This document shows positions 17,845-33,834 of a DNA stretch of 64,000 nt, piece after piece. The position numbers were made by a program, and so were the translations under genes. How positions within the stretch are numbered: the stretch's first letter is position 1; each line of letters opens with the position of its first letter. Source of the DNA: Pontibacter sp. G13 (GTDB lineage: Bacteria > Bacteroidota > Bacteroidia > J057). The stretch is from the NCBI RefSeq assembly GCF_031851795.1, contig NZ_CP134696.1:6262001-6326000 (forward strand). Reading direction: 5' to 3'. The notes beneath the pieces are model-generated. The model saw only the letters and a program-made list of their open reading frames with translations, had not been told where the DNA came from and did no database searches.

Positions 17845-17887
17845 GATGCGTGACTGTTGAGAGGTTGATACGCAATGATAGGAAAAA

Positions 17888-17918
17888 TTACGTAAAAATT
17901 TAGGTATCATTACGTAAT
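17888..17918. promoter_or_regulatory. Putative NarL-type regulator sites between cobA and nirB
   Basis: TTACGTAA (17888-17895), TAGGTA (17901-17906) and ATTACGTAAT (17909-17918) lie in the divergent cobA-nirB control region. The same words occur near the regulator gene and the porin gene of the same island. Confidence 0.5.
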
Positions 17919-17927
17919 TTTTCTATG

Positions 17928-17958
17928 TTTGGTCATCGGTACTGTCCGGATAATACGT
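17928..17958 (+). promoter_or_regulatory. Candidate nirB promoter with TACGTA at the -7 element
   Basis: TTTG (17928-17931), a 19-base spacer, then TAATACGT (17951-17958) inside ATACGTAAT. The first half fits the phylum -7 element but the TTTG half is replaced by ACGT, suggesting an activator-dependent promoter. Predicted start is near 17965, 17 bases before the nirB ATG. Confidence 0.45.
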
Positions 17959-17981
17959 AATATTTCTCAATCGCTACGCAT

Positions 17982-20492
17982 ATGGAACGAGTCGTTGTTG
18001 TGGGGAATGGCATGGTGGGGTACAAATTCTGCGAAAAGTTCGTGGCCCAAAAGGGAACCGATCGCTTTCAATTGGTGGTCTTCGGGGAAGAACCGCGACC
18101 TGCCTACGATCGGGTGCATTTGAGCGCCTACTTTGAAGGTAAATCTGCCGAAGATTTGACCATGGCACCCGCAGGTTGGTATCAGGAGCAGGGGATCGAA
18201 CTCCTATGTGGGGAACGAATTGTAGATATCGATCGCTCAGCCAAAGAGGTGGTCTCCGATCAGGGACGCCGCCTTAAGTATGACAAATTGGTATTGGCTA
18301 CTGGATCAGTCCCTTTTGTTCCGCCCATTCCCGGGGTGGAAAAGGAAGGAGTACTCGTATATCGGACGATTGAGGATCTGGAAGCCATCAAGGCCTATGG
18401 AGAAAAAGTGCGGAGTCAGGGCAATGGGAAAGCTGCCGTGTTGGGGGGAGGTCTTCTGGGGTTGGAAGCTGCAAAGGCTGTGAGAGATCTGGGATTGGAA
18501 ACCCATGTGGTGGAATTTGCTCCGAGACTCATGCCTAGACAGTTGGATGATGCAGGTGCCGGATTGCTGAAGCGGATGATTGAATCCATGCAGATCGGGA
18601 TTCATACCAATAAGGCCACGACCGAGATCACCGGAAATGGAAAGATGGAAGGAATGACTTTCAAAGATGGTGATTCACTCGACGTGGAGATGCTGGTGAT
18701 TTCTGCTGGCATTCGTCCACGCGATGAATTGGCTAGGCATACGGCGTTGGAAGTGGGACCGCGTGGCGGAATTACAGTCAATGAACGGATGCAGACCTCG
18801 GACCCCGAGATTTATGCGATTGGTGAATCGGCCTTGTACCAAGGAATGATCTACGGATTGGTCGCACCTGGATATGAAATGGCGGAAGTCGCTGTCTCGG
18901 ATATTTTGGGAGGGTCAACGACCATGTCCGACGCGGTGGATATGTCCACCAAGCTCAAATTGATCGGAGTAGATGTGGCCAGTTTCGGTGATCCCATGCC
19001 GAATAATTCACAAATCCGGACGATCGCCTACGAAGACGCACTGAATCAAACTTACAAGCGAATCAATGTTTCCGAAGATGGGAAGCAGTTGTTGGGGGGG
19101 ATTCTGGTCGGTGATGCCGATGACTATAATTTTCTCCTACAGATGGTACAGAATGCCATGCCTCTGCCGCCTGAGCCTGCGGATTTGATCTTGGGACCTA
19201 GGGGTGGGGGGGAAGCCGCAGCGGGATCTGTGATGGACTTTCCCGATGAGGCCGTGATCTGCTCTTGCGAACAGGTGACCAAGCTGGGTATTTGTGAAGC
19301 CATCACCTCTGGAACTGCCGAAAACCTGAAGGGAGTGAGTGCCTGTACCGGAGCGACCACGGGATGTGGAGGTTGTAAACCCATGGTGGCCGATCTTGTG
19401 AAGGCGACCCTGGAATCCATGGGTCAGGTAGTGAAGGAAGAAATCTGTGAGCATTTCCCTTATAATCGCCGCGAGTTGTACGACTTGATCAAGATTCAGG
19501 GAATCAAGACCTATGACGAGGCTTTGGATGCGTTTGGAAGTGGGGACGGATGTGAGGTGTGTAAGCCGGTGTTGGCTTCGGTATTCGCAGGAATCTATAA
19601 TGAGACGGCCGTGGTCCAGGAAACCATTCAAGATACCAATGACCGATACTTAGCCAATATCCAGCGGAATGGGACCTACTCGGTGGTTCCTCGTGTACCC
19701 GGAGGGGAAATCACCCCAGAGAAATTGATGGTGATTGGCCAAGTCGCCCAGAAATACGACCTCTACACCAAAATTACCGGAGGTCAGAGAATCGATTTGT
19801 TTGGTGCCAGGGTGGACCAACTTCCTGATATCTGGGAAGAATTGATTGAAGCGGGCTTTGAATCCGGCCATGCCTACGGAAAAGCTTTGCGGACTGTCAA
19901 GAGCTGTGTAGGTTCCACATGGTGCAGATATGGAATGGATGAATCCGTGAGTTTCGCCATCGAGTTGGAAGAACGATATAAGGGAATCCGATCGCCTCAC
20001 AAGCTCAAAGGAGGGGTGTCTGGATGTATCCGCGAATGCGCGGAGGCGCGTTGTAAAGACTTTGGGGTCATAGCAACCGAGAAGGGCTGGAATCTCTATG
20101 TCTGTGGAAATGGAGGAGCTAATCCCAAGCATGCCAAACTTCTGGCTGAGGATCTGGACCGTGAGACCTGCACCCGGTATCTGGATCGATTCCTCATATA
20201 CTATTTGCGTACTGCTGCTCCTTTGATGCGGACTGCGGCTTGGCTGGAAAAATTGGACGGAGGCTTCGAGTATCTCAAGCAGGTAGTGGTGGAAGATTCG
20301 CTAGGACTCGGGGAAACGATGGAGACAGAGATGCGGCAAATGGTCAATACCTACAAGTGTGAATGGAGGGAAGTCGTAGAGAATCCTGAGCTTCGGAAAC
20401 GATTCAGACATTTTGTGAATTCCGAAGATGCTGACGACAACTTGGAATATGTTCCGATGCGGGAGCAGAAAATGCCTGCACCTTGGGCATAG
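17982..20492 (+). CDS. nirB: NAD(P)H nitrite reductase, large subunit
   Basis: An 836-residue cytoplasmic assimilatory nitrite reductase that reduces nitrite to ammonium. Domain order: FAD/NAD(P) pyridine nucleotide-disulphide oxidoreductase (about 1-400; VVVGNGMVGYKFCEK, then VLGGGLLGLEAAKAV), a BFD-like [2Fe-2S] domain (CSCEQV ... GCGGCKP, about 425-475), a second short BFD-like segment (GCEVCKP), then the ferredoxin-like and siroheme/[4Fe-4S] domain (about 540-800) with CVGSTWC and GCIRECAE supplying the cluster/siroheme cysteines. Its length equals typical NirB. It is the first gene of nirB-nirD-DUF4202, followed closely by the two-component system. Divergent cobA supplies siroheme. Confidence 0.96.
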   Translation: MERVVVVGNGMVGYKFCEKFVAQKGTDRFQLVVFGEEPRPAYDRVHLSAYFEGKSAEDLTMAPAGWYQEQGIELLCGERIVDIDRSAKEVVSDQGRRLKYDKLVLATGSVPFVPPIPGVEKEGVLVYRTIEDLEAIKAYGEKVRSQGNGKAAVLGGGLLGLEAAKAVRDLGLETHVVEFAPRLMPRQLDDAGAGLLKRMIESMQIGIHTNKATTEITGNGKMEGMTFKDGDSLDVEMLVISAGIRPRDELARHTALEVGPRGGITVNERMQTSDPEIYAIGESALYQGMIYGLVAPGYEMAEVAVSDILGGSTTMSDAVDMSTKLKLIGVDVASFGDPMPNNSQIRTIAYEDALNQTYKRINVSEDGKQLLGGILVGDADDYNFLLQMVQNAMPLPPEPADLILGPRGGGEAAAGSVMDFPDEAVICSCEQVTKLGICEAITSGTAENLKGVSACTGATTGCGGCKPMVADLVKATLESMGQVVKEEICEHFPYNRRELYDLIKIQGIKTYDEALDAFGSGDGCEVCKPVLASVFAGIYNETAVVQETIQDTNDRYLANIQRNGTYSVVPRVPGGEITPEKLMVIGQVAQKYDLYTKITGGQRIDLFGARVDQLPDIWEELIEAGFESGHAYGKALRTVKSCVGSTWCRYGMDESVSFAIELEERYKGIRSPHKLKGGVSGCIRECAEARCKDFGVIATEKGWNLYVCGNGGANPKHAKLLAEDLDRETCTRYLDRFLIYYLRTAAPLMRTAAWLEKLDGGFEYLKQVVVEDSLGLGETMETEMRQMVNTYKCEWREVVENPELRKRFRHFVNSEDADDNLEYVPMREQKMPAPWA

Positions 20493-20537
20493 CCATCTTT
20501 ATCTCAACACACGTTTAGAACTTCAACATTTATCCTC

Positions 20538-20915
20538 ATGGAAACCCTTTTGACTCAATATCAGACGGTCTCTGATGAATCCGTCAAGGTCTGGTTCAAG
20601 GCAGCAAGCGTAGAGGACATTCCTGCCGATGGAGGTGCATGCGTCAAATACAAGGACAAGCAAATCGCCATATTTCATTTCCGTCGCAAGCAGGCGTGGT
20701 ATGCTACGCAGAACCTATGTCCCCATAAAATGGAGATGGTGTTGGCTCGGGGATTGATAGGGGAGTCCGCTGGAATTCCCAAGGTGGCCTGTCCCCTTCA
20801 TAAGCGTACTTTTTCATTGGAAACTGGCGAAAACCTCAATGGATCTGAACCCGCGATTGCAGTTTACCCAGTTAAGGTAGAGAATGGGTATATTTACATA
20901 GGATTTGAGGAGTAG
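20538..20915 (+). CDS. nirD: Nitrite reductase small subunit (Rieske-like)
   Basis: A 125-residue NirD-type protein, 45 bp after nirB. The fold is Rieske-like (VKYKDKQIAIFHFRRKQAWYATQNLCPHKM ... VACPLHKRTFSLETGE when read in pieces). The cluster-ligand pattern Cys-x-His ... Cys-x2-His of true Rieske proteins is only partly kept: CPHK and CPLHK remain, so cluster binding is uncertain, as is usual for NirD. It partners NirB in the cytoplasm. Confidence 0.92.
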   Translation: METLLTQYQTVSDESVKVWFKAASVEDIPADGGACVKYKDKQIAIFHFRRKQAWYATQNLCPHKMEMVLARGLIGESAGIPKVACPLHKRTFSLETGENLNGSEPAIAVYPVKVENGYIYIGFEE

Positions 20916-20938
20916 GACCACCTTAACCGCGCATTACG

Positions 20939-21532
20939 ATGCATCATGTTAGTTTTTCCCAAGCCATTCAGGCGTTTGATCAAGCCAATGCCCAAGACCC
21001 CAATTCGGTTAGATGGCAGGGAACGGATTGGCCCAAAGAGCTCCTCTATGCGCATCGAATGTCCGAGTGTTTGGAGTCATTTGAACCAGACGCCACCGAA
21101 GCCCTTCGATTGGCGGTCAGATGTCAACATATTCGGAGATGGGAAATTCCAAGATCATCTTATCCAGATGGAAAGAAGGGATATTATGCCTGGCGAAACG
21201 AGTTGAAGCGATTTCATGGGGAAGCCGCAGCTGAAATCCTAACCTCAGTGGGATATGATGATGAGATGGTGGCCAAGGTTCAGAAATTGCTCAACAAGGA
21301 GCAGTTGAAGAAGAATCCCGACACCCAAACACTGGAAGATGTCATCTGTCTGGTGTTTTTGCAGTACTATCTTGGCGAGTTCGCAGAACAACATGCTGAT
21401 GAAAAAGTAGTTGACATTCTCCGGAAAACTTGGCGGAAAATGTCCCTCAAAGGACAGGAACGTGCCAAAACCATAGCTTTCCCCTCTCCATTGGGACAAT
21501 TGGTGATTGCGGCCATTTCTGCTCCTTCCTGA
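20939..21532 (+). CDS. DUF4202 protein linked to nitrite assimilation
   Basis: A 197-residue soluble protein matching DUF4202: LLYAHRMSECLESF, then LRLAVRCQHIRRWEIPRSSYP, a WRNELKRFH block, and EDVICLVFLQYYLGEF. The conserved histidines and the acidic residues in these blocks look like an HD-domain-type metal site, which is my inference. It lies 23 bp after nirD. The family is often found beside nitrite or nitrate assimilation genes, but its reaction is not known to me. The stop is 12 bp before the sensor kinase start. Confidence 0.85.
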   Translation: MHHVSFSQAIQAFDQANAQDPNSVRWQGTDWPKELLYAHRMSECLESFEPDATEALRLAVRCQHIRRWEIPRSSYPDGKKGYYAWRNELKRFHGEAAAEILTSVGYDDEMVAKVQKLLNKEQLKKNPDTQTLEDVICLVFLQYYLGEFAEQHADEKVVDILRKTWRKMSLKGQERAKTIAFPSPLGQLVIAAISAPS

Positions 21533-21543
21533 ATTTTTGTTCT

Positions 21544-23406
21544 ATGAATCATTCAGCAGCGATTTCTAGCCAAAGTGCATCCGTATTCAAGCGCCTTAGT
21601 AGGTGGTACTTGATTGCTTTGAGTGTGATTGGAGTGGTGTTCATTGCCAGTCATGCACTTATTCAAGGCCATCTCGACAAACAGGAAAATGATTCCAGAA
21701 TCGTCAATGTAGCGGGTAGGCAAAGGATGCTCAGTCAGCGCCTATCCAAGGAAATCCTCATGCTGACGACTGCAGAGGAACCTACCAAGAGGCAAGAAAT
21801 CAAATCCCAGATCAAAGAGACTCTGGAAATCTGGACCTCTTCTCATGATGGGTTGAAGTTTGGTAGCGAAGAGTTGGGCTTGCCCGGTGTGAATAGTGTA
21901 TCGGTACTGAAGATGTTCGCCGATATTCAACCGCATTATGATGCGATGGTAACCGGGACACTCCACATTTTGAAGACGCTCAATCAAAATCCTTTGGTGG
22001 ATCTCTCAGAGATCGAACCTGATATGGATTTGGTCTTGGATCATGAGCAGGATTTCCTGCATGGGATGGATAAGTTGGTGTTTCAGTATGATGCTGAGGC
22101 CAAAAACAAGGTTTTGGAATTGCGGAAGGTGGAATATCTGCTGTTGTTTTTTGCTTTGGCTACTTTGGTTGTAGAGTTGCTGTTCATTTTTCGTCCAACT
22201 GCCCTGTATGCCAAGCAGAATATTCAACAATTGGTAGAAGCCGAAAAAGCAGCGCTAAGCAATGCAGAGGAAATACGTGAGCTATATGAGGTGAAGGAAA
22301 AGTCAGTACAAGAACTTCGAGCCCTGAATTTTGCTGTAGACCAAGCTGCGTTATTTGCCAGTATCCGGTTGGATGGCTCCTTGATTTATATGAGTGAAAA
22401 GCTCAAGCTATTTTTGGGCTACCGCCATAAAAAACCCATGGGACAATTTGCTGAGATTATGACTACCCATGAGGGAGAACAACAATATCTTAGTCAAATC
22501 ATTCGGACACCAAGGTCTACCATTTGGACCGGTGAGGTGTCCATTACTTCGCTGAATGGCACCAAGCATTGGCTCGAACTATCGATTGTACCAGTTAATA
22601 GAAGTGGTATCCAGCAGGATTATCTCATATTGTGCTCGGATATTTCGGCTCGAAAGAAAACTGAAAAGGCACTCCAGCAACTCAATGAGGAAAAGTTCGA
22701 GGAACGGTTTCGGTTGCAGAAACTGCGTTCTCTTCATGTTGTGGAGGCTCAGGAGAATGAGCGGAAACGCATTGCTAGAGACATGCACGATGGCATCGGG
22801 CAGATGCTGACCGCGTTGAAGTTTAATCTGGAGTCCGTTAATCCGGAAAAGCCAGAGCGAGCGCGAGAAAAAATCACGAGCTTGAAGCAATTGGCCAGTA
22901 ATCTGATTAAGGGAGTTCGAATTGCTACCTTCAATCTAACACCCCCTGAATTGACAGATTATGGTCTTCCTTCGGCACTAGCCAAACTCTGTTCGGAATT
23001 GAAGAAATTGACCTCCGAGCCGATATTATTTGAAAACAGAACTCAGTTTCAAGGCAGATTTGATCCAATTGTAGAGACTAATATCTATCGGATCACCCAA
23101 GAAGCGGTGAATAATGCCATCAAATACTCAGAGGGTTCTTATATACTCGTTACGCTTTCTCACAGCCGAGACCTGGTCAGTATCATGGTGGAGGATGATG
23201 GGAAGGGCTTTGATCAGAACCAAGTGGTGATAGAGCCGCAAGATCCTGAAGGGACCAATCTGGGACTCTCATTCATGCGAGAGCGGGTAGCCTATATCAA
23301 TGGCAGATTATTTATCCGATCCAAATCTGGTGAGGGGACGCGAATTACCGTCAATATACCCATCAGTACTGAATCTAAGGAGGGTCGTATGTTAGGTAAT
23401 ACGTAG
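21544..23406 (+). CDS. Sensor histidine kinase with PilJ/NIT-like nitrate-sensor domain
   Basis: A 620-residue membrane kinase. Transmembrane helix 1 (about 20-40) and helix 2 (about 200-220) bracket a periplasmic helical domain that begins IVNVAGRQRMLSQRLSKE. This matches the type IV pili methyl-accepting (PilJ-type) domain and the nitrate-binding P-box of NarX/NarQ. It is followed by a coiled segment (about 225-265), a PAS domain (about 275-385), a HisKA_3 dimerisation domain with ERKRIARDMHDGIGQ (His415), and a HATPase_c domain (EAVNNAIKYS, DDGKGFD, GLSFMRERV). It should sense nitrate/nitrite and phosphorylate the NarL-type regulator that follows 48 bp later. ATG 21544 gives the correct short N-terminal tail; upstream frame lies inside DUF4202. 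Confidence 0.9.
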   Translation: MNHSAAISSQSASVFKRLSRWYLIALSVIGVVFIASHALIQGHLDKQENDSRIVNVAGRQRMLSQRLSKEILMLTTAEEPTKRQEIKSQIKETLEIWTSSHDGLKFGSEELGLPGVNSVSVLKMFADIQPHYDAMVTGTLHILKTLNQNPLVDLSEIEPDMDLVLDHEQDFLHGMDKLVFQYDAEAKNKVLELRKVEYLLLFFALATLVVELLFIFRPTALYAKQNIQQLVEAEKAALSNAEEIRELYEVKEKSVQELRALNFAVDQAALFASIRLDGSLIYMSEKLKLFLGYRHKKPMGQFAEIMTTHEGEQQYLSQIIRTPRSTIWTGEVSITSLNGTKHWLELSIVPVNRSGIQQDYLILCSDISARKKTEKALQQLNEEKFEERFRLQKLRSLHVVEAQENERKRIARDMHDGIGQMLTALKFNLESVNPEKPERAREKITSLKQLASNLIKGVRIATFNLTPPELTDYGLPSALAKLCSELKKLTSEPILFENRTQFQGRFDPIVETNIYRITQEAVNNAIKYSEGSYILVTLSHSRDLVSIMVEDDGKGFDQNQVVIEPQDPEGTNLGLSFMRERVAYINGRLFIRSKSGEGTRITVNIPISTESKEGRMLGNT

Positions 23407-23415
23407 GAATACGTA
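23393..23415. promoter_or_regulatory. TAGGTA/TACGTA sites before the response regulator gene
   Basis: TAGGTA (23393-23398), TACGTA (23400-23405) and TACGTA (23410-23415) lie across the kinase stop codon. The two TACGTA words are spaced 10 bp, one helical turn. A weak promoter here could give autoregulation of the regulator gene. Confidence 0.4.
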
Positions 23416-23454
23416 TATTGCCATTCACTCTAAGATCCCCATATAACGAATTCC

Positions 23455-24165
23455 ATGTCAACCATTCAATCCGGGCACATTCAAGTCGTATTGGCGGATG
23501 ACCACGCGTTGGTCCGTGATGGGATTAGGTCCTTGCTGGAAGAAGACCCCACTATTGAGGTGATTGCCGAAGCTTCCAATGGAGAAGAGGCGCTTCAACA
23601 GGTGGAGATCCATCAGCCTGATTTGTTGATCGTAGATATCCGGATGCCCAAAATGAACGGCATTCAGACTGTATCTGCCCTCACCCAGACCCCTTCGGAG
23701 ACCAAGGCGCTGGTACTTTCCATGCACGATTCGGAGGAATATGTGCTTCAATCTGTCGAAGCAGGTGCCTTTGGATACCTGCTCAAAGATATCAGCAAGG
23801 ACGAATTCCTGAAGGCCATTCACACCATTCATGGTGGCGGGAAGTATTTTTGTGGGGAGATTTCCCCCATCCTTGTGCAGAAGTATCTAGAAAATGTGGG
23901 AGGAAGTGAGCGTGCACCCAAAGTGGCTGAGCCTGCACCTGAATATCAGGCTTCCGTCCCAACGACAGATTTTCAACTCACGAAACGCCAAAAGGAAATT
24001 CTCGCTTTGGTGGTGAATGGCATGAGCAATAAAGAAATCGCAGAGCACTTGGACAAAAGTGTCAGGACCGTAGAGGCTCATCGATTTTCACTAATGAAAA
24101 AGATGGGAGTCAAAAACTTGTTGGAACTCAGTAACAAGGCCCGAGAACACGGACTCATTAAGTAG
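23455..24165 (+). CDS. NarL/FixJ-family response regulator
   Basis: A 236-residue regulator. Receiver domain residues 1-125: acidic pocket VVLADDHALVRDG, phospho-acceptor Asp61 in LLIVDIRMPKMNG, and the conserved Lys in YLLKDIS. A linker (about 135-165) is followed by a LuxR-type helix-turn-helix (LTKRQKEILALVVNGMSNKEIAEHL, read in parts; then VRTVEAHR) at about 168-230. It should bind as a dimer to NarL-like heptamers; candidate sites are described near 17.9, 23.4 and 24.3 kb. It pairs with the upstream kinase and ends at a strong terminator, so the porin/transport genes need their own promoter. Confidence 0.93.
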   Translation: MSTIQSGHIQVVLADDHALVRDGIRSLLEEDPTIEVIAEASNGEEALQQVEIHQPDLLIVDIRMPKMNGIQTVSALTQTPSETKALVLSMHDSEEYVLQSVEAGAFGYLLKDISKDEFLKAIHTIHGGGKYFCGEISPILVQKYLENVGGSERAPKVAEPAPEYQASVPTTDFQLTKRQKEILALVVNGMSNKEIAEHLDKSVRTVEAHRFSLMKKMGVKNLLELSNKAREHGLIK

Positions 24166-24204
24166 TCTCAAAGAATTTACCTATTCGGATAAGAATGAAT
24201 GCCT

Positions 24205-24236
24205 TCCGGAATTCTACTGGTCAGTAGAATTCCGGA
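24205..24236 (+). terminator. Rho-independent terminator after the response regulator
   Basis: Perfect inverted repeat TCCGGAATTCTACTG (24205-24219) and CAGTAGAATTCCGGA (24222-24236) followed directly by a T-run. Confidence 0.9.
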
Positions 24237-24288
24237 TTTTTTTGTATTCCATTTTCGCGGTTTCTAGGTAGTGGGCTCTGTTTTGAAT

Positions 24289-24352
24289 AAAAATTAAGTA
24301 TTGATACTTAATTTTTGATAAACATTTTTAGGTATCGTATTGAAATACTTAT
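24289..24352. promoter_or_regulatory. Inverted repeat and NarL-like heptamers upstream of the porin operon
   Basis: AAAAATTAAGTAT (24289-24301) and ATACTTAATTTTT (24304-24316) form a perfect 13-2-13 repeat whose inner part has a 7-2-7 layout. TAGGTA (24329-24334) and TACTTAT (24346-24352) follow; the latter matches the NarL heptamer TACYYMT exactly. This places likely regulator sites 15 to 80 bases before the -33 element. Confidence 0.5.
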
Positions 24353-24365
24353 ATATTGTGGTCAG

Positions 24366-24398
24366 TTGAATCGATGAGACTAAGGATTACTACGTAAT
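24366..24398 (+). promoter_or_regulatory. Candidate porin/transport operon promoter
   Basis: TTG (24366-24368), 19 bases, then TACTACGT within TACTACGTAAT (24388-24398). The arrangement is the same as at nirB. The predicted start near 24402 leaves a leader of about 23 bases. Confidence 0.45.
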
Positions 24399-24424
24399 TG
24401 TATGGTCAAAGCAACCGTATTACG

Positions 24425-25726
24425 ATGAAACCTAATCAACTCCTATTAATGTTCGGCATGCTGGCTTGTTTGGCGGGAAGTACCCTGCCCCTGCATGCAC
24501 AATTCAAACTGACTGCGGAAGTTCGTCCGCGGACTGAGTTTCGCCAAGGGTTCAAGACTCCTACCTCGGATGGCTTTGAACCGGCATTTTTCACTGAGCA
24601 GCGAAGCCGCTTGTATTTTGACTACAAAGAAGAAAAATACAAGTTTCGTGTATCGCTTCAGGATGTTCGTATTTGGGGGGAAGTGCCTCAGATCTTCAAG
24701 CAGGAGGATGGTAACACATTCCTGAGTGAGGCATGGGGACAGTACTACTTCACCAAAGAATTGTCTGTAAAGGCAGGACGTCAAATCATTTCCTACGACA
24801 ACCAGCGATTCCTCGGTGGCTTGGAATGGGCACAGCAAGGGAGACGTCACGACGCTTTCTTGTTCGCCTTTGAAGACGATGAAAAGGACCACAAGCTACA
24901 CCTTGCGGTAGCCATGAATGCAGACGATGAAACGGCAGAGCCTGGAAATCTTCAGGGACCCAATGCCTCCTACTATGCGGTCGCCGGCAACTACAAGAAT
25001 ATGCAGTATGCTTGGTATCACAAGGGATCAGATAAGGGGGCAATCTCCTTGTTGGCCTTGAATGCTCAGTACCAAAACCGGGCGGACACCAGTGTATTTG
25101 CCAAGCAGACCCTAGGTGCAGTGGGATCACTGAAATTCGGGAAAGTGACTGTAGGTGGTGATTTGTACTACCAAACAGGCAAGCAAGGAAGCGCTGATGT
25201 GAATGCATGGTTGGCAGGAGCAAACGTGACCCTCAAAACCAAGCTCACTCCGCTGAAATTGGGAGTAGAATACATTTCTGGTAAAAATGATACGGATGGT
25301 GCAGACGATTTGACTGTTACCAACTTCTCTCCAGATTTCGGTACTAACCATGCCCATAATGGATTCATGGATTATTTCTTCGTAGGTCCTGCTAACGGAA
25401 ATGTCGGAGTGACAGACATCTATCTGAAGACTAAATGGAAGCTGAAGAAAGGTGCCTTGATTGCCAACTTCCATGAGTTTTTGACAGGTTCCACCCAGCT
25501 GGACGGCAATGGCAACGAATTGGCCAAACCAATGGGATTCGAGGCAGACTTGGTTTACGCAGTGAAGTTGGCACCCTCGGTAACGTTCAATTTGGGATAC
25601 TCCCACTTGGTGGCTTCCGAGACGATGCTTTCCCTTCGGCCTGGCAATGCACAAAACAACCACTGGGGCTGGATGATGATTACCTTCAAGCCTACCCTGT
25701 ATCAGACTCCCAAGCCTGAATCCTGA
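24425..25726 (+). CDS. Outer-membrane porin-like protein, alginate-export type
   Basis: A 433-residue protein with a signal peptide ending LPLHAQ (about residue 25). The mature part is all beta, with alternating-residue strands and a C-terminal GWMMITFKPTLYQ-like segment. The EVRPRTEFRQGF and FFTEQRSRLYFDY opening, then VSLQDVRIWG and KAGRQIISYDNQRFLG, resemble alginate-export (AlgE-like) barrel proteins. In this island it is immediately upstream of the nitrate ABC transporter, so it probably lets nitrate/nitrite across the outer membrane; that is context inference. ATG 24425 is used because it starts the signal peptide; a TTG-led extension upstream has none. Confidence 0.78.
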   Translation: MKPNQLLLMFGMLACLAGSTLPLHAQFKLTAEVRPRTEFRQGFKTPTSDGFEPAFFTEQRSRLYFDYKEEKYKFRVSLQDVRIWGEVPQIFKQEDGNTFLSEAWGQYYFTKELSVKAGRQIISYDNQRFLGGLEWAQQGRRHDAFLFAFEDDEKDHKLHLAVAMNADDETAEPGNLQGPNASYYAVAGNYKNMQYAWYHKGSDKGAISLLALNAQYQNRADTSVFAKQTLGAVGSLKFGKVTVGGDLYYQTGKQGSADVNAWLAGANVTLKTKLTPLKLGVEYISGKNDTDGADDLTVTNFSPDFGTNHAHNGFMDYFFVGPANGNVGVTDIYLKTKWKLKKGALIANFHEFLTGSTQLDGNGNELAKPMGFEADLVYAVKLAPSVTFNLGYSHLVASETMLSLRPGNAQNNHWGWMMITFKPTLYQTPKPES

Positions 25727-25767: not shown

Positions 25768-27138
25768 ATGAATAAGCTTTACATGCTCCTGATGGGAGTC
25801 GTGATCCTCGGTGCATCTGCATGTGGAGGAGGTGCCGGAACTGGTGCCACACAGACTGAAGTCGCCACCCCGGCGCTTGCAATCGAAAAGCCACAGCTCA
25901 CCTTTGGCTTCATCAAGCTGACAGATATGGCTCCCCTCGCAATCGCGAAGGAGCTGGGGTACTTTGAGGATGAAGGCCTTTTCGTGACTATTGAGGCTCA
26001 ATCCAACTGGAAAAACGTTTTGGACCGGGTCATTGACGGTCAGTTGGACGGATCTCATATGCTATCTGGTCAGCCTATTGCTGCCGGTGCAGGATTTGGC
26101 CGTCAAGCAGAGCTCATCACTCCATTTTCCATGGATCTCAATGGAAATGGCATTACGGTGTCAAATGATGTGTGGTCTGCTATGAAACCGCATATTACTA
26201 TGGGGAGCGATGGATTGCCTGTCCATCCGATTAAGGCGGATGCCTTGAAGCCAGTAGTCGCTGACTACAAGTCCAATGGTAAGCCATTCAAAATGGGCAT
26301 GGTCTTCCCGGTATCTACTCACAATTACGAAATTCGGTACTGGTTGGCAGCCGCTGGAATCCACCCAGGAATGTACACTGCCGACAATATCCAAGGACAA
26401 GTGGATGCTGATGTGTTGCTGTCTGTAACCCCTCCGCCACAAATGCCTGCAACCTTGGAGGCCGGTACCATCTACGGATACTGTGTGGGTGAGCCTTGGA
26501 ATCAACAAGCTGTATTTAAAGGCATTGGAGTACCGGTAACCACGAACTATGATATTTGGAAGAACAACCCTGAAAAGGTGTTTGTGATGCGCAAGGACTT
26601 TGCAGAAAAGTACCCCAACACGACTATCGCCATTACCAAAGCATTGATTCGTGCAGCCAAATGGTTGGACAATCCGAGTAATCGTCCTGCAGCTGTTGGG
26701 ATTCTCTCCAAGCCAGATTACGTAGGTGCAGATTCCGTCGTGATCGCTAACTCTATGACCGGAACCTTTGAGTTTGAGCGTGGCGACAAACGTTCCATGC
26801 CAGACTTCAACGTATTCTTCCGCTATCACGCGACCTATCCATTCTACTCTGACGGAATCTGGTTCTTGACTCAGATGCGTCGCTGGGGACAGATTCCAGA
26901 TCCTAAACCTGCTGATTGGTATCACTCCAAGATCAAGGAGATATATCGTCCTGACCTTTGGATGCAGGCTGCCGAAGCGCTGGTGGCGGAAGGTAAATTG
27001 ACGATGGAGGAAATTCCGGAAACTGATGGATACAAGGCCCCAACGACCGACTTCATCGATGGGAACAGCTATGACGGCAAGGACCCGATTGGATACATCA
27101 ACAGCTTCCAAATCGGTATCAAGGAAGAAGCCCTTTAA
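25768..27138 (+). CDS. nrtA: Nitrate ABC transporter substrate-binding lipoprotein
   Basis: A 456-residue lipoprotein. A hydrophobic signal ends in the lipobox GASAC (Cys19) followed by glycines and a flexible linker. The core belongs to the CmpA/NrtA family: [38 protein letters not shown], and a C-terminal [23 protein letters not shown]-type region (read in parts). It should capture nitrate (less likely bicarbonate) in the periplasm and deliver it to the adjacent permease. The gap to nrtB is 28 bp. The nitrate call comes from its neighbours (nitrate reductase and nirBD) rather than from pocket residues. Confidence 0.9.
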
Positions 27139-27166
27139 CCAGCAACAAGCGTCAAACTGAACGGAT

Positions 27167-28261
27167 ATGAAAGAAGCAACCATACCAGCCAATCGCGAAT
27201 CCCAATTCGTGGCTCGATTGAGCCAATGGGCAAGCCGCTTTGTTCCTAACAAGGCCAAGACGATTCATTTCCTCCGGAATTCAGGGATCTCGCTAGCCTC
27301 AATGGGGGTATTTCTGTTGATTTGGCAATTGGGTTCTGCCGGACTCTATCAGGTAGAGGCAAATGCCCGAATTCAAAAGGCATTGACAGACCAAGGTCAG
27401 GCAGCTGCGGAGGAAGTCAAGGCATGTATTGCTTCTGGCGACCTGAGTTGTCAGCCCAATACCCTTCCAGCACCGGGACAAGTTCTCCACGCGGCCAAAG
27501 CATTGTGGCTGGACCATCTGGAGATTTCCCAGAAGAAGGCAGACTTTGCGTTGAAGGTTGGAGCAACCAACGCACAGCGTGAAGCTCAAGGGCTAGCTGC
27601 TATTATCTACACAGGAAGGCCTTCCTTCATCGACCAGATCTTTACCAGCTTGAAAACTGTGCTGGTGGGATTTTTGATCGCAATGTTGATCGCCATTCCA
27701 ATTGGTGTGGTCATCGGATTGAATGATACTCTTCGGACGGCATTCAATTGGTTGATTCAGGTGTTCAAACCTGTCTCACCGGTGGTTTGGTTGCTTTTGG
27801 TATTCATGATTGTCAAGACATTGACGCTGAATGTGGATATGGATACCTCTTTTATCATCTCCAGTATCAGTGTAGGACTCTGCGCCATGTGGGCGACCTT
27901 GGTCAACACCAGCCTGGGAGTTTCTTCTGTGAATAAAGATTATCTCAACGTCGCTAAGGTCCTCAAGCTAGGAGTAGGTAAAAAAGTCTTCAAAGTGATT
28001 TTGCCTTCATCCATCCCGCTGATCTTCACGGGAATGAGGATTACAGTTTCTGTGGCTTGGATGGTGTTGATTGCAATCGAACTTCTGGCTCAAAGCCCTG
28101 GACTAGGATCGTTCGTTTGGGAGGAATTCCAAAATGGAGCGAATGATTCCAATGCAAAAATTATCGTCGCGATGTTCGTGATTGGCCTGATCGGATTCCT
28201 GTTGGACCGAGTCATGTTCTGGGTACAACGCTCTGTATCATTCGAGAAGGCAATGGCCTAA
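27167..28261 (+). CDS. nrtB: Nitrate ABC transporter permease
   Basis: A 364-residue inner-membrane permease. Transmembrane helix 1 is at about 45-63; then comes a periplasmic insert of about 90 residues (including CIASGDLSCQPNTLPAPG) before the core of five helices (about 165-350). The EAA-type loop for ATPase contact is seen as DYLNVAKVLKLGVGKKVFK followed by LPSSIPLIFTGMR. It fits the NrtB/CmpB/SsuC group. The insert with two cysteines is longer than in many permeases and might form a disulphide-bonded cap toward NrtA. A stem-loop follows before the ATPase genes. Confidence 0.9.
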   Translation: MKEATIPANRESQFVARLSQWASRFVPNKAKTIHFLRNSGISLASMGVFLLIWQLGSAGLYQVEANARIQKALTDQGQAAAEEVKACIASGDLSCQPNTLPAPGQVLHAAKALWLDHLEISQKKADFALKVGATNAQREAQGLAAIIYTGRPSFIDQIFTSLKTVLVGFLIAMLIAIPIGVVIGLNDTLRTAFNWLIQVFKPVSPVVWLLLVFMIVKTLTLNVDMDTSFIISSISVGLCAMWATLVNTSLGVSSVNKDYLNVAKVLKLGVGKKVFKVILPSSIPLIFTGMRITVSVAWMVLIAIELLAQSPGLGSFVWEEFQNGANDSNAKIIVAMFVIGLIGFLLDRVMFWVQRSVSFEKAMA

Positions 28262-28282
28262 TCTGACGTTTAGGAAACCGTA

Positions 28283-28367
28283 CCTGATGGACTCATGGAA
28301 ATTACTGCTACAGATAGTCAATAGTCTTTGGTTTAAAACAGCCGTTCGTTTCATGAGACCCATCAGG
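28283..28367 (+). other. Long-range stem-loop between nrtB and the ATPase genes
   Basis: CCTGATGG-A-CTCATG (28283-28297) pairs with CATGAG-AC-CCATCAGG (28352-28367): 6 and 8 base pairs separated by a small internal loop, closing about 54 bases. No T-run follows, so it is more likely an RNA-processing or stability element in the transcript than a terminator. Confidence 0.5.
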
Positions 28368-28410
28368 GCGGAGTCCGCTTCTCTTTTTCCTTGTTTTCAC
28401 TTGAATTACT

Positions 28411-29283
28411 ATGGAACCGATAATAGAATTCAGAAATGTCAGTAAGTGGTATGGCGAAGGGGATAACCGTACCTACGTGCTCAAGGATATCAACCTGAGC
28501 ATTTATGAAGGAGAATTCCTTGCCATTGTTGGATTTACAGGATCTGGAAAAACCACCTTGGTAAATCTGATGAGCGGTCTTCTCAAGCCGAGCAAAGGAG
28601 AGGTCTTGTTCAAGGGCAAACCGATCCAAGGGCCAAGCCTTGAACGCGGCATTATTTTTCAGAATTATTCGCTGTTGCCTTGGTTCACAGTATACCAAAA
28701 TGTGGCCCTAGCGGTAGATGCAGTCTTCCCTTCGTGGACGAACGAGCAGAAAGATTCGCATATTCGGAATTTTGTGGAAATGGTGAACCTTACCCCAGCT
28801 ATCCAGAAAAAGCCAAATGAGCTATCTGGCGGTATGCGACAAAGGGTGGCAGTAGCAAGGGTCCTCTCCACCGATCCCGAACTTTTGCTCATGGATGAGC
28901 CATTGGGAGCGTTGGATGCACTCACCAGAGGTAATCTCCAAACAGAGATTCTTAAAATATGGAGTGCAAACCAACGGACAGCAGTACTGATCACCAACGA
29001 TGTGGACGAAGGCATACTTATGGCAGATCGGATCATTCCGCTCACTCCTGGGCCAGATGCAGTGCTGGGGCCCGAGTTTTCCATCCACGTGGAAAGACCT
29101 CGGGATAAAACCACCCTGAACACCGATCCCAATTTCAAACGAGTCAGAACGGATATTCTCAATTATCTCGTTGAACTTGGAGAAGCCTCTAAGCTGACTC
29201 AAAAAGGCCAATATGAGCTGCCGGATTTGACCCCGATCCTACCCGGCAAGAATTCCTTTAATCCATTCAGAAAAGCTGTTTAG
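28411..29283 (+). CDS. Nitrate ABC transporter ATP-binding protein 1
   Basis: A 290-residue ABC ATPase. Walker A GFTGSGKTTL, Q-loop in FQNYSLLPW, signature LSGGMRQRVAVARVL, Walker B ELLLMDEPLGALDALTR, and the switch position is TNDVDEG where most paralogues have a His (ITHDxxEA). That replacement of the switch histidine by Asn is notable and suggests reduced hydrolysis in this half of a heterodimeric ATPase. There is no C-terminal NrtA-like solute-binding domain, unlike cyanobacterial NrtC. It sits 149 bp after nrtB and 23 bp before the second ATPase. Confidence 0.88.
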   Translation: MEPIIEFRNVSKWYGEGDNRTYVLKDINLSIYEGEFLAIVGFTGSGKTTLVNLMSGLLKPSKGEVLFKGKPIQGPSLERGIIFQNYSLLPWFTVYQNVALAVDAVFPSWTNEQKDSHIRNFVEMVNLTPAIQKKPNELSGGMRQRVAVARVLSTDPELLLMDEPLGALDALTRGNLQTEILKIWSANQRTAVLITNDVDEGILMADRIIPLTPGPDAVLGPEFSIHVERPRDKTTLNTDPNFKRVRTDILNYLVELGEASKLTQKGQYELPDLTPILPGKNSFNPFRKAV

Positions 29284-29306
29284 TCCAACCCTCCAACCAC
29301 CGAGTC

Positions 29307-30119
29307 ATGGAACAAGCCACTATTTCCACTTCTCCAAACACCATAGTCGAACCTCGTACAATGCTTCACATGAAGGATTTGACTAAGGTGTATCCAACTC
29401 CAAAAGGTGATTATGTAGTTCTTGAAAACCTTCAGCTGCAGATTATGCAGGAGGAATTCGTCTCAATAATTGGTCATTCTGGATGCGGAAAAACGACTCT
29501 TTTGACGATGATCGCTGGGCTGAATGAAATTTCCGGAGGACACATCCTGATCAATCAACATCCCATCGAAGGCCCCGGTCCTGATCGAGCGGTTATCTTT
29601 CAAGCTCCGAGTCTGTTGCCTTGGATGACAGCCTTGGAGAACGTGCTCTTAGGCGTGAAACAGGTTTTTCCGCATGGCACAACGAAACAGCAGATAGATA
29701 TCTGTAAATACTACCTCAGCAAAGTAGGGCTGGAATCTGCCTTTGATCGCAAAGCAACCGAGCTTTCTCAAGGCATGCAGCAACGTGTGGGGATTGCAAG
29801 AGCCTTTGCACTCAAACCCAAAATTCTTCTGCTGGATGAACCATTTGGAATGCTTGATTCCTTGACGAGAGCTGAGCTTCAGGACGTGCTGTTGGAGGTC
29901 TGGGACAAAGAAAAGATCACAGCAGTCCAAATTACCCACGATGTGGATGAAGCCATTTTCTTGGCAGACAGAGTGATCATGATGACTTCCGGTCCTCGTG
30001 CGCAGATTGGAGATATCCTATCCATTGATTTCGAGCGGCCTCGATCACGGAAAGAAATTCTCAATCATGCAGATTATTACCATTATCGCAATCACTTGAT
30101 TGATTTTCTGGAAAATTGA
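29307..30119 (+). CDS. nrtD: Nitrate ABC transporter ATP-binding protein 2
   Basis: A 270-residue ABC ATPase. Walker A GHSGCGKTTL, Q-loop FQAPSLLPW, signature LSQGMQQRVGIARAF, Walker B ILLLDEPFGMLDSLTR, and an intact switch histidine in ITHDVDEAIFLADR. The signature has Q for the second G (LSQGM), also seen in NrtD-like proteins. It matches the NrtD group and presumably pairs with the preceding ATPase, whose switch histidine is replaced. It completes a four-gene nitrate importer. Confidence 0.9.
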   Translation: MEQATISTSPNTIVEPRTMLHMKDLTKVYPTPKGDYVVLENLQLQIMQEEFVSIIGHSGCGKTTLLTMIAGLNEISGGHILINQHPIEGPGPDRAVIFQAPSLLPWMTALENVLLGVKQVFPHGTTKQQIDICKYYLSKVGLESAFDRKATELSQGMQQRVGIARAFALKPKILLLDEPFGMLDSLTRAELQDVLLEVWDKEKITAVQITHDVDEAIFLADRVIMMTSGPRAQIGDILSIDFERPRSRKEILNHADYYHYRNHLIDFLEN

Positions 30120-30163: not shown

Positions 30164-30237
30164 ACCCCCGGCAACCAGTAAGGGGTACATGAGGGGCGAT
30201 CTCCGGCTGTTGAATGGCAGAATTCAACCAGCCGGAG
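30164..30237 (+). promoter_or_regulatory. Structured leader upstream of the nitrate reductase gene
   Basis: Two hairpins are visible: ACCCC (30164-30168) with GGGGT (30182-30186), and a strong stem CTCCGGCTG-TTGAAT (30201-30215) with ATTCAA-C-CAGCCGGAG (30222-30237), one bulged C and a six-base loop. An in-frame ATG at 30214 falls in the stem and loop, which disfavours it as the start. Confidence 0.5.
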
Positions 30238-30306
30238 GTCGTGCGAAAACTCATCCCTATCATACGGGCAGAAGTATACTCAATTGAGCCGATAGGACCT
30301 GGAATC

Positions 30307-33300
30307 ATGAGAAATGAAACATTCAAATCGACTTGCTCATACTGTGGAGTAGGATGTGGAATATTGGTCCACAAGGACGCCAAAGGCGGGGTAGAGGTTT
30401 CGGGAGATCCTGATCACCCTGTCAACAAAGGCATGTTGTGCTCCAAAGGCCGGACGCTTCATCATGTGGTCCAAGACACTTCAGATCGGATAAAGTATCC
30501 CCAAATGCGATGGAGTCGAAATCATCCGCTTGAACGTGTATCATGGGATCAAGGCCTAGAGCGAGCAGCTGCTGTATTCCGATCAATTGCAAGGAATCAT
30601 GGCCCTGATTCGGTGGGATTCTATGTTTCTGGACAGTGTCTAACTGAAGAATATTACCTTGTCAATAAACTGGTGAAAGGATATCTCGGAACCAATAATG
30701 TCGATACCAACTCGAGACTCTGTATGAGTTCAGCGGTGGCGGGATACATCAAGACGTTTGGGGAGGATGCTGTACCGATTTCCTATGACGATATCGAACT
30801 GGCTGATTGTTTTCTCATTGCAGGGGCTAATCCAGCTTGGTGTCACCCGATCCTATTTAGACGAATCGAGAAACATAAACTCCGACATCCAGATACCAAA
30901 ATTGTCGTGGTGGACCCCCGACAGACAGCCAGTTGCTCGATTGCAGATCTACACCTCCAAATCAATCCAGGAACTGATACACTTCTTTATCTAGCGATCG
31001 GAAAGCGCCTATTAGAAGCTGGCTGGGTAGATCAAGCATTTATTGATTTACATACAGAGGGATTCGAGGCCTACAAATCCCTTTTGGCTGACATCTCCCT
31101 AAAAAAAGCCGCCAAAGCATGTGGAGTTTCAGTGGCCGATATAAAATTGGCAGCTCAATATATCGGGAAAGCTAAGGGGTTTATCTCCATGTGGGCAATG
31201 GGGCTGAACCAAAGCGTAGTTGGGGTAGACAAGAATGTGGCCTTATTGAACCTATCTCTCCTCACTGGACAGGTCGGAAAGCCGGGGGCTGGACCATTTT
31301 CCTTGACTGGCCAACCTAATGCCATGGGAGGAAGGGAAGTAGGGGGAATGTCCACCCTGCTTGCGGCACATAAGAATCAACAGAATCCGGAACACAGACA
31401 GGAAGTGGCTGACTTTTGGGGGGTTGAATCTTTGCCTGATCAACCCGGTCTGACCGCAACTCAAATGTTTGATGCCCTCGAGGATGGGACTCTGAAGGCT
31501 ATTTGGATTATCTGCACCAATCCCATGGTGAGCCTCCCAAATTCTAGAAGCATGGAGCGCGCACTCAAGGCGGCTAAGTTTGTGGTGGTTCAGGACATTT
31601 CCTACAGGTCAGATACTGCAGCCTTCGCTGATCTTCTACTCCCAGCCGCGGGGTGGTTGGAGAAGGCGGGCACAATGACCAATTCTGATCGAAGAATCAG
31701 TTTATTGCCCAAGGTGCTGGATGCACCGGGAGAAGCATTGCCTGATGCCGAAATACTTTGGCGATTTGCCCGAAAAATGGGATTCAAGGGATTCGATTAC
31801 AGAGATGTCAAGGAAGTGTATGATGAGCATTGCCGTTTAACCAAAGGAACAGAGATAGACATATCGGGATTGAGTCATCAGCGGTTGAAAAATGAAGGTA
31901 CTTTCCAATGGCCTGTGCCATTTCAAGATCATCAGGGAACCGCTAGACTTTTTGAAGATGGCAGGTTTTTTACGGAAACTGGACGGGCACGCTTCAATAA
32001 TCCCCAATACCTCCAAAATCAATCTCCCCCTCCTAGTACTCAATTTCCTTTGATCCTGACTACAGGTCGCGTTCGTGATCAATGGCATACCATGACACGG
32101 ACTGGGAAGGTCAATAAGCTCTTGACCCATGCACCAATTCCTTTTTTGGAGATTCATCCTGAAGATGCCCTGAAGCGACAATTGCGGAATGGGCAGGTGG
32201 CCTTGGTGAAAAATGACAATGGGACAGTAAGAGTCAAGGTACGAACCACCAAAACAATCAAAGAAGGGGTCGTATTCCTACCTATGCATTGGGGAAAGAT
32301 TTTGGGGAAGGATTTTGGCCGGGCTAACAATCTAACGGATAACCGATATGACCCCATCTCCAAGGAGCCGGATTTTAAATATTCACGCGTACAGGTAGAA
32401 CCATATTCGAAGCCCAAGCAGCGAATATGTGTGATTGGAGCTGGAGCTGCAGCGTACAGATTCGTTCAAAGCTATCGAAAGTTAAATCGGGTAGATGAGA
32501 TTCAGGTATTCTCTAAGGAATCAGACCCTTTTTATAATCGTGTATTGCTCCCCGAGTATGTCAGTGAAGACTTGAAATGGGAAGATCTTCAAAAGCTGAA
32601 AAAAGGAGAATTAGCAAAACTAAAGATCCGAATTCATGCTGGTACAGGAATCCAGAATATTGATAGATCTGCCCAAACCATCACAGATGATCAAGGCCAA
32701 GTTCATCCTTACGACATTTTGATTGGGGCTACCGGGAGTAGGCCTTTCGTTCCGAGAGATGTGGCGATTCACCTTCCGGGCGTATTCACCATGAGATATC
32801 GGACGGATGCTGATGACTTGCGCGAATATCTCAATGCCTCAGGTTTGCCTAAACCACGGCAAAATGTTCTCATCGTAGGGGGGGGATTGCTAGGACTTGA
32901 ATTGGCAGCAGCTCTTCGTAAACAAGGGGTTTCGATTACCATCGTTCATCGCGCTTCTCGATTGATGATTCGGCAATTGGATACTGTTGCTTCCAACCTA
33001 CTGGCTGAAGATGTGTTGGAAAGGGGCATTCAAGTGTATTTCGACAATGAGGTTAGTACCATCGTAGAATCTGATTCCCAAAAGGGACTGACTGCTACCT
33101 TGAAAAGTGGAAAGATCATTTCTTGTACTGCGGTGGTATACGCCATCGGTACAAGACCCAATATTGACCTTTTCAAACAATCGGGTTTATCCTGCGGAAG
33201 AGGAGTGTTAGTTAATGAATATCTTCAGTCTTCTGATCATCAGGTGTTTGCTGTTGGGGAAATTGCCGAGTTTCAACAAAAACTTTACGGGATTACAGCC

Positions 33301-33834
33301 GCCGCGGAACAACAAGCTGATGTGTTGTCACAGTATTTAGCAGGAGATTGGGGAAGTGGATATCGTGGTTCTGTTCCCATGAATATCCTAAAATTCGAAG
33401 ACTTGAATCTTTGCTCAATAGGTGAAGTTCAAGTTCCCAAACACGATGCTGAATACGAGGAGGTGATTTTTACCGACCTGAGTAAACGGTACTACAAGAA
33501 ATGTGTCATCAAAAATGACAGGCTTGTAGGTGCTATCTTGTTAGGAGACAAATCTGAGTTTGCGGAATTCAAAATGCTCATAGAGGATCGCATCGAGCTA
33601 TCCGAAAAACGAAATGAATTGTTGCGATCTCAATCAGGTGCAGAGCCTGTAGAGGGGCGCTTGGTATGTTCCTGTAATCCAGTTGGGGAAGGAAATATTT
33701 CCAGGAAGGTAGCAGGAGGTACTACTGAGTTTGATGTCCTTTGTAAGGAAACAGGTGCGGGGCTAGGATGTGGAAGTTGCAAGCCTGAAATTCAAGAAAT
33801 CCTAGAAAACTCCTTGAAAGCAATCACCACATAG
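30307..33834 (+). CDS. nasA: Assimilatory nitrate reductase fused to FAD reductase and BFD domains
   Basis: A 1175-residue cytoplasmic enzyme in three parts. Residues 1-700: molybdopterin oxidoreductase with a [4Fe-4S] motif (Cys10, Cys13, Cys17, Cys45), the molybdenum-ligand Cys139 in SRLCMSSAV, and a C-terminal dinucleotide-binding domain (ILTTGRVRDQWHTMTRTGK). Residues 705-1110: pyridine nucleotide-disulphide reductase (RICVIGAGAAAY and NVLIVGGGLLGLELA) like NirB/NasC. Residues 1115-1175: BFD-like [2Fe-2S] domain (CSCNPV, with Cys1121, Cys1123, Cys1155 and Cys1158). It should reduce nitrate to nitrite with electrons from NAD(P)H by intramolecular transfer. ATG 30307 is preferred to 30214 because the latter lies in a hairpin. 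The next gene starts 4 bp after the stop. Confidence 0.9.
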   Translation: MRNETFKSTCSYCGVGCGILVHKDAKGGVEVSGDPDHPVNKGMLCSKGRTLHHVVQDTSDRIKYPQMRWSRNHPLERVSWDQGLERAAAVFRSIARNHGPDSVGFYVSGQCLTEEYYLVNKLVKGYLGTNNVDTNSRLCMSSAVAGYIKTFGEDAVPISYDDIELADCFLIAGANPAWCHPILFRRIEKHKLRHPDTKIVVVDPRQTASCSIADLHLQINPGTDTLLYLAIGKRLLEAGWVDQAFIDLHTEGFEAYKSLLADISLKKAAKACGVSVADIKLAAQYIGKAKGFISMWAMGLNQSVVGVDKNVALLNLSLLTGQVGKPGAGPFSLTGQPNAMGGREVGGMSTLLAAHKNQQNPEHRQEVADFWGVESLPDQPGLTATQMFDALEDGTLKAIWIICTNPMVSLPNSRSMERALKAAKFVVVQDISYRSDTAAFADLLLPAAGWLEKAGTMTNSDRRISLLPKVLDAPGEALPDAEILWRFARKMGFKGFDYRDVKEVYDEHCRLTKGTEIDISGLSHQRLKNEGTFQWPVPFQDHQGTARLFEDGRFFTETGRARFNNPQYLQNQSPPPSTQFPLILTTGRVRDQWHTMTRTGKVNKLLTHAPIPFLEIHPEDALKRQLRNGQVALVKNDNGTVRVKVRTTKTIKEGVVFLPMHWGKILGKDFGRANNLTDNRYDPISKEPDFKYSRVQVEPYSKPKQRICVIGAGAAAYRFVQSYRKLNRVDEIQVFSKESDPFYNRVLLPEYVSEDLKWEDLQKLKKGELAKLKIRIHAGTGIQNIDRSAQTITDDQGQVHPYDILIGATGSRPFVPRDVAIHLPGVFTMRYRTDADDLREYLNASGLPKPRQNVLIVGGGLLGLELAAALRKQGVSITIVHRASRLMIRQLDTVASNLLAEDVLERGIQVYFDNEVSTIVESDSQKGLTATLKSGKIISCTAVVYAIGTRPNIDLFKQSGLSCGRGVLVNEYLQSSDHQVFAVGEIAEFQQKLYGITAAAEQQADVLSQYLAGDWGSGYRGSVPMNILKFEDLNLCSIGEVQVPKHDAEYEEVIFTDLSKRYYKKCVIKNDRLVGAILLGDKSEFAEFKMLIEDRIELSEKRNELLRSQSGAEPVEGRLVCSCNPVGEGNISRKVAGGTTEFDVLCKETGAGLGCGSCKPEIQEILENSLKAITT

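Follow-up and report, generated by a model that had tools for sequence, protein, structure and literature searches.

A 64,000-nucleotide window of the Pontibacter sp. G13 genome (contig NZ_CP134696.1, positions 6,262,001 to 6,326,000) carries a nitrate island in which short TAC-containing words recur in front of nirB, a response regulator gene and a porin operon. These words are very probably half-sites (TACKTA, in complement TAMGTA, with TAGGTA as a variant) of the narRR-type regulator encoded at 23455-24165, which probably activates the promoters that carry them. The basic unit is the inverted repeat TAVGTA-N4-TACBTA, which a first-pass annotation of this DNA had not named. From sequence comparisons we infer that the regulator binds the repeat, that it must be phosphorylated to do so and that its effect is activating.

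An inverted repeat underlies the nitrate-island words

The words that the first-pass annotation listed are present and lie far above chance. TACGTA begins at 17889 (given before as 17888, the other word positions standing as listed), 17911, 17954, 23400, 23410 and 24391, TAGGTA at 17901, 23393 and 24329, and TACTTAT at 24346. The window holds 12 copies of TACGTA against 2.2 expected, a count reached by no shuffle, and 22 copies of TAGGTA against 7.7, many of the latter inside genes. Upstream of nirB the sequence reads TTTG (17928-17931), 19 bases and TAATACGTAAT (17951-17961), and upstream of the porin operon TTG (24366-24368), 19 bases and TACTACGTAAT (24388-24398). The first word ends 20 bases short of the nirB ATG (17982), within the 17 to 23 bases proposed earlier for both promoters; the second ends 26 bases short of the porin ATG (24425), outside that range. 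An ATG at 24402 opens a frame that stops after eight codons, and the porin start is placed at 24425 instead. Pattern searches of the 7.67-Mb genome, on which all our genome-wide counts rest, found two matches to TAnTACGTAAT, at nirB and the porin operon, and seven to the same pattern written backwards.

Both promoters also share an inverted repeat, TTAGGTA-TCAT-TACGTAA at nirB (17900-17917) and TTAAGTA-TTGA-TACTTAA at the porin operon (24294-24311). These are the only perfect matches to TTAnGTA-N4-TACnTAA in the genome, and allowing one mismatch adds a single site, C1:2242688, which looks like a chance palindrome and was rejected as an operator. The genome contains four exact copies of the core TAVGTA-N4-TACBTA. 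Of these, three fall within a 6.4-kb stretch of the island, upstream of nirB, the regulator gene and the porin gene, and the copy at 23400-23415 stands directly ahead of the regulator gene.

The fourth copy, TAAGTATTTATACCTA at C1:4159228-4159243 (locus L131, 9229-9244), lies about 190 bp ahead of an operon encoding a membrane protein, a histidine-kinase-like protein and a LuxR-type regulator that is the closest paralog of the island regulator. It is a single site, the control pattern has 12 genome matches, and we do not count it as evidence of function.

The repeat is conserved at nitrate genes and tracks the regulator

We scanned named genomes with the regulator and recovered 80 islands, most with the same gene order, comprising 1.52 Mb of loci. 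TTAnGTA-N4-TACnTAA proved too narrow for these orthologs (3 of 76 upstream regions), and the six-base half-site was used instead. The 80 islands contain 222 intergenic and 3 coding copies of TAVGTA-N4-TACBTA and none of the reversed control. The genes behind the sites are nirB (63), a NarK-type MFS transporter (45), the regulator (33), the porin (25), nrtA (20) and nasA (18). Further sites precede genes for MoeA and MobA (molybdenum cofactor), a periplasmic double-PilJ protein, a globin and Crp/Fnr, families assigned by inspection of the proteins, without a profile search. A repeat with a 4- or 5-base gap lies within 200 bp upstream in 67 of 75 nirB regions, compared to 0.05 expected after shuffling. 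The first-pass annotation had staked its reading on finding TACGTAAT upstream of orthologous operons; TACGTA is found within 60 bp of the start in 66 of 75 orthologous nirB genes, with 1.35 expected.

Sites are also concentrated at the island when whole genomes are searched. In seven of the genomes with at least four sites, the island share is 5/5 (G271), 4/4 (G270), 4/5 (G272), 3/4, 3/4, 3/4 and 5/8; weaker shares were seen in Galbibacter (G269, 3/7) and in G273 (3/5). Several of the sites outside islands are intragenic and are taken as chance, and MoeA recurs behind a site outside the nitrate island. In four Aquimarina loci (L067, L075, L081 and L111), the same operator stands ahead of a gene whose product lacks a kinase, begins in a signal-like way and carries two nitrate-box stretches (xNxSGKQRMLxQ), possibly a periplasmic nitrate-binding protein.

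The presence of the repeat follows that of the regulator gene. Among 18 other genomes with nirB, all five with a regulator ortholog (55-58% identity) have the repeat, one of them with an N5 gap, and none of the 13 without an ortholog has it (Fisher's test about 1e-4, a rough figure given the relatedness of the genomes). The recognition helix, RT-x-E-x-HRFNLMKK, is almost unchanged among the orthologs and differs in paralogs. Together with the concentration at nitrate genes, this co-occurrence supports the earlier suggestion that the local NarL-type regulator recognises the words. In Lewinella-type loci (L069, L070, L105 and L160), a half-site spacing of 11-12 bp occurs together with a variant regulator (HRFNMMKK, VSNSSEL); regulator and site may have changed together there.

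Half-sites keep a fixed order, helical phase and promoter register

Among pairs of half-sites 10 bp apart, TAAGTA precedes TACTTA 104 times, and the opposite order, that of NarL, does not occur. Spacings between half-sites peak at 10, 22, 32, 43, 53 and 63 bp, with a period of 10.6 bp (R 0.45, 1065 pairs). This periodicity is stable in subsets (R 0.44-0.48), compared to about 0.25 at other periods for control words, and the half-sites therefore tend to share one face of the helix. In Flavobacterium psychrophilum, the sigma-A -7 box of the Bacteroidota is TAnnTTTG at -12 to -5 (PMC9723704). The distance from the start of the repeat to such a box in the orthologs is 14 bp in 119 cases, 22-25 bp in 37 and 32-35 bp in 8, over a background of about 0.5 per position. 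The nirB promoter of the window has a TAnnTTTG box as well, TATGTTTG, which starts at 17924, an offset of 23 from the repeat start at 17901.

Single half-sites also occur downstream of the box. In 53 of 75 nirB promoters TACGTA follows the -7 start by 16-18 bp, and in the window and in loci L036 and L037 it does so by 28-31 bp. In flavobacterial orthologs it begins 9-10 bases ahead of the nirB ATG, 3' of a perfect TAnnTTTG. Three loci (L074, L094 and L108) have a nirB start about 90 bases further downstream than usual; two of them, L094 and L108, also have an early ATG behind TACGTA whose reading frame is very short. Despite the shifted start, the half-site in these loci keeps its distance from the -7 box, and it therefore belongs to the promoter rather than to the start codon.

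These results give the following promoter and operator map for the window.

17879-17894: imperfect half-site pair TAGGAA-N4-TACGTA (one mismatch) in the nirB promoter, also picked up as a direct repeat; orthologs have a second upstream pair at a similar distance (-47/-37)
17901-17916: inverted repeat TAGGTATCATTACGTA, predicted response-regulator site of nirB, one of the four genome copies
17924-17931, + strand: -7 box of nirB, in a register preferred in orthologs; transcription start predicted at about 17936
17951-17961, + strand: downstream half-site of nirB, with TACGTA at 17954-17959 (about +19), conserved downstream in orthologs
23400-23415: inverted repeat TACGTAGGAATACGTA upstream of the regulator gene, overlapping the end of the kinase gene; 33 ortholog cases ahead of the regulator
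23414-23421, + strand: possible, weak -7 box TATATTGC at offset 14 from the repeat, of the TAnnTTGY type, a variant described in PMC9723704
24205-24244, + strand: likely intrinsic terminator after the regulator, a 15-bp perfect hairpin followed by a T run
24295-24310: inverted repeat TAAGTATTGATACTTA of the porin operon, core of a perfect inverted repeat with 13-bp arms (24289-24316)
24329-24351: further porin-promoter half-sites, TAGGTA (24329) and TACTTA (24346); TACTTA abuts the -7 box in orthologous porin promoters
24352-24359, + strand: probable porin -7 box TATATTGT, imperfect and tentative, 23 bp from TAGGTA (24329), the same offset as at nirB
24388-24398, + strand: downstream half-site of the porin operon, with TACGTA at 24391

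Proposed mechanism and alternatives

We propose that the partner kinase (21544-23406) senses nitrate through its PilJ domain and phosphorylates the regulator, which would then bind phased half-sites cooperatively. Its main site would be a TAAGTA-N4-TACTTA pair, two inverted half-sites spaced by 10 bp, set at fixed helical steps of 14, 22-25 or 32-35 bp upstream of TAnnTTTG. Additional half-sites lie upstream, and often another follows shortly after the transcription start, so that the whole set would occupy a single face of the helix. Bound regulator would recruit RNA polymerase at the adjoining -7 box of promoters that lack a clear -33 element, switching on nirBD, the regulator's own gene, the porin gene and the nrt/nas operon. 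A broader claim, for which we see about as much to be said on either side, is that this is a phylum-wide nitrate regulon of the Bacteroidota, with half-sites opposite to the NarL order in a phased array that runs from upstream of the -7 box to past the transcription start. The array abuts or overlaps that box and might replace the -33 contact, an architecture for which the literature we searched offered no counterpart.

Several observations weigh against this proposal. In the window, the -7 boxes of the porin and regulator promoters are imperfect, Lewinella-type genomes space their half-sites by 11-12 bp and not by 10, and the island genomes are related, so that counts among them are not independent. 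The offset-14 repeat spans about -26 to -11 and reaches into the start of the -7 box, a location that repressors often use. Promoters with the motif show no enrichment of a -33 TTG some 19 bp ahead of the -7 box. Ordinary TAnnTTTG sites of the same loci are without it too, and we dropped its absence as an argument for activation for that reason.

It is unlikely, in our judgement, that the regulator binds these sites mainly to repress, with nitrate relieving the repression. The overlap of offset-14 sites with the -7 box would suit a repressor, as would the several nrtA promoters with a repeat just downstream of TATATTTG. Fixed helical steps are unneeded for repression, yet the offsets cluster at them, and NarL-type regulators at nitrate genes are usually activators. 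We consider it very unlikely that another factor, for example of the Crp/Fnr type, binds the sites and that the response regulator is a mere neighbour. Crp/Fnr sites are inverted repeats with a 4-base gap too, and a Crp/Fnr gene is itself preceded by the repeat in 4 of 80 islands. However, such cases are confined to those four islands, the motif goes with the regulator ortholog (5/5 versus 0/13), and helically stepped arrays of single half-sites would better fit a LuxR-type response regulator. The idea that AT-rich words cluster by chance where intergenic DNA is itself AT-rich has practically nothing left to recommend it: the half-site is indeed AT-rich and only six bases long, but shuffles of the window, counts over the whole genome, controls with reversed patterns and conservation among orthologs all contradict chance, which was already refuted by the 222 intergenic against 3 coding sites with no control match.

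The promoter that the first-pass annotation proposed, TTG-N19-TAnnACGT, in which ACGT stands where the -7 box should have TTTG and the regulator makes up for the difference, is in our view highly improbable. Its pattern, TTG-N19-TAnTACGTAAT, does occur at both promoters with the same N19 spacing, and TAnTACGTAAT is found nowhere else in the genome. However, the box at 17924-17931 is a complete TAnnTTTG in a conserved register, 23 bp from the repeat, and the supposed -33 TTTG of nirB is therefore the end of a -7 box. Locus L036 has TTTG-N17-TAATACGTAAT, and L037 lacks the TAnn part. The flavobacterial TACGTA is too near the ATG to be a -7 box. The porin TTG is weak, three bases long and unsupported by orthologs. 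We thus rejected TACGTAAT as a degenerate -7 box and read it as the downstream operator half-site of the regulator.

Genes of the nitrate island

The island comprises cobA (divergent), nirB, nirD, a DUF4202 gene, a PilJ-PAS-HisKA_3 kinase gene, the NarL-type regulator gene, the porin gene, nrtABCD and a nasA-like reductase gene.

17982-20492, + strand: nirB, nitrite reductase large subunit (TIGR02374, 1045 bits)
20538-20915, + strand: nirD, Rieske-type small subunit (Rieske_2)
20939-21532, + strand: DUF4202 protein (PF13875), conserved in these islands
21544-23406, + strand: nitrate-sensor histidine kinase of the narHK type, PilJ-PAS-HisKA_3-HATPase by Pfam domains, with N-box VNVAGRQRMLSQ
23455-24165, + strand: NarL/LuxR-type response regulator of the narRR type (Response_reg 5.6e-30, GerE 5.4e-18)
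24425-25726, + strand: alginate-export-type porin (PF13372), first gene of the nitrate uptake operon
25768-30119, + strand: nrtA-nrtB-nrtC-nrtD, nitrate ABC transporter (PF13379, TIGR01183, TIGR01184)
30214-33834, + strand: nasA-like reductase with a NirB-like C-terminal part, conserved in islands (tblastn); predicted function from similarity and context

The kinase and regulator fit the narHK/narRR class as defined in PMC8199190, with a PilJ sensor that has PAS and HisKA_3 and lacks HAMP or GAF, beside a response regulator in a nitrate island. The N-box of the kinase fits the nitrate-binding consensus [IVL]-[ND]-x-A-G-x-Q-R-M-L-[ST]-Q, which was defined for McpN (PMC6381276). The regulator has the receiver domain and C-terminal GerE-type helix-turn-helix of the NarL/FixJ (LuxR-type) family. 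Its nearest solved structure is NarL (1a04, E 3e-34), and it is not an equivalog of Escherichia coli NarL (NF007935, 147 bits against a cut-off of 250). The DUF4202 gene is kept between nirD and the kinase gene in most islands, and the nasA-like reductase appears to be a fusion, a single protein of 1206 residues in which residues 737-1204 match nirB.

Comparison with known systems

Few regulators of the Bacteroidota have a known DNA site. The repeat offers a specific, testable operator for nitrate assimilation in flavobacteria, Algoriphagus-type Cytophagales and Saprospiria, and predicts a regulon of uptake, reduction and molybdenum-cofactor genes in sequenced relatives. It also offers a well-defined setting in which to study how an activator acts at the unusual TAnnTTTG promoter, and it suggests a nitrate-responsive promoter for laboratory use in the Bacteroidota. 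The same sites, one DNA turn apart in dozens of relatives, would amount to a readable code for the switching of nitrate use in a major marine and soil phylum.

The closest known system is the Bacteroidetes narHK/narRR pair (PMC8199190), which has the same sensor class, with a nitrate P-box and PAS and without HAMP or GAF; the Galbibacter record JH651379 of that paper is the contig of our locus L047. Its text, searched for promoter and binding site, gives genes and domains and no DNA site for narRR, to which our analysis adds the site, regulon and spacing. E. coli NarX-NarL likewise combines a nitrate sensor with a LuxR-type regulator and TAC-containing half-sites whose hexamers start 10 bp apart. 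However, the half-site order in its 7-2-7 site, TACCCCTAAAGGGGTA (PMC4549865), is the reverse of TAAGTA-N4-TACTTA: pairs in the NarL order (TACTTA before TAAGTA, as in TACYYMT-N2-AKRRGTA) were found 0 times here at 10 bp, compared to 104 in the reverse order. The recognition helices differ as well (TVEAHRFSLMKK against TVKVHVKHMLKK). Staphylococcus NreC (PMC8139620, PMC5694512) is another nitrate-linked response regulator with a palindrome at nar, nir and narT, although that palindrome is described as GC-rich and its kinase senses oxygen, whereas the repeat here is AT-rich and the kinase is a PilJ nitrate sensor. Looking in the literature for RcsB-type operators whose half-sites run in a similar order brought up nothing of use.

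The sigma-A promoter of the Bacteroidota (PMC9723704) recurs as TAnnTTTG in the window's nirB and in most ortholog promoters. It differs here in that the box keeps fixed helical distances from the predicted regulator sites; no -33 TTG was seen, nor was one seen at ordinary TAnnTTTG sites of the same loci. The open-access literature we searched, which leaves subscription papers mostly outside, yielded no DNA site for a Bacteroidota nitrate regulator. The narHK/narRR pair was already known, but in that literature we found no account of the operator, of the reversed order and phasing of its half-sites or of the regulon predicted here.

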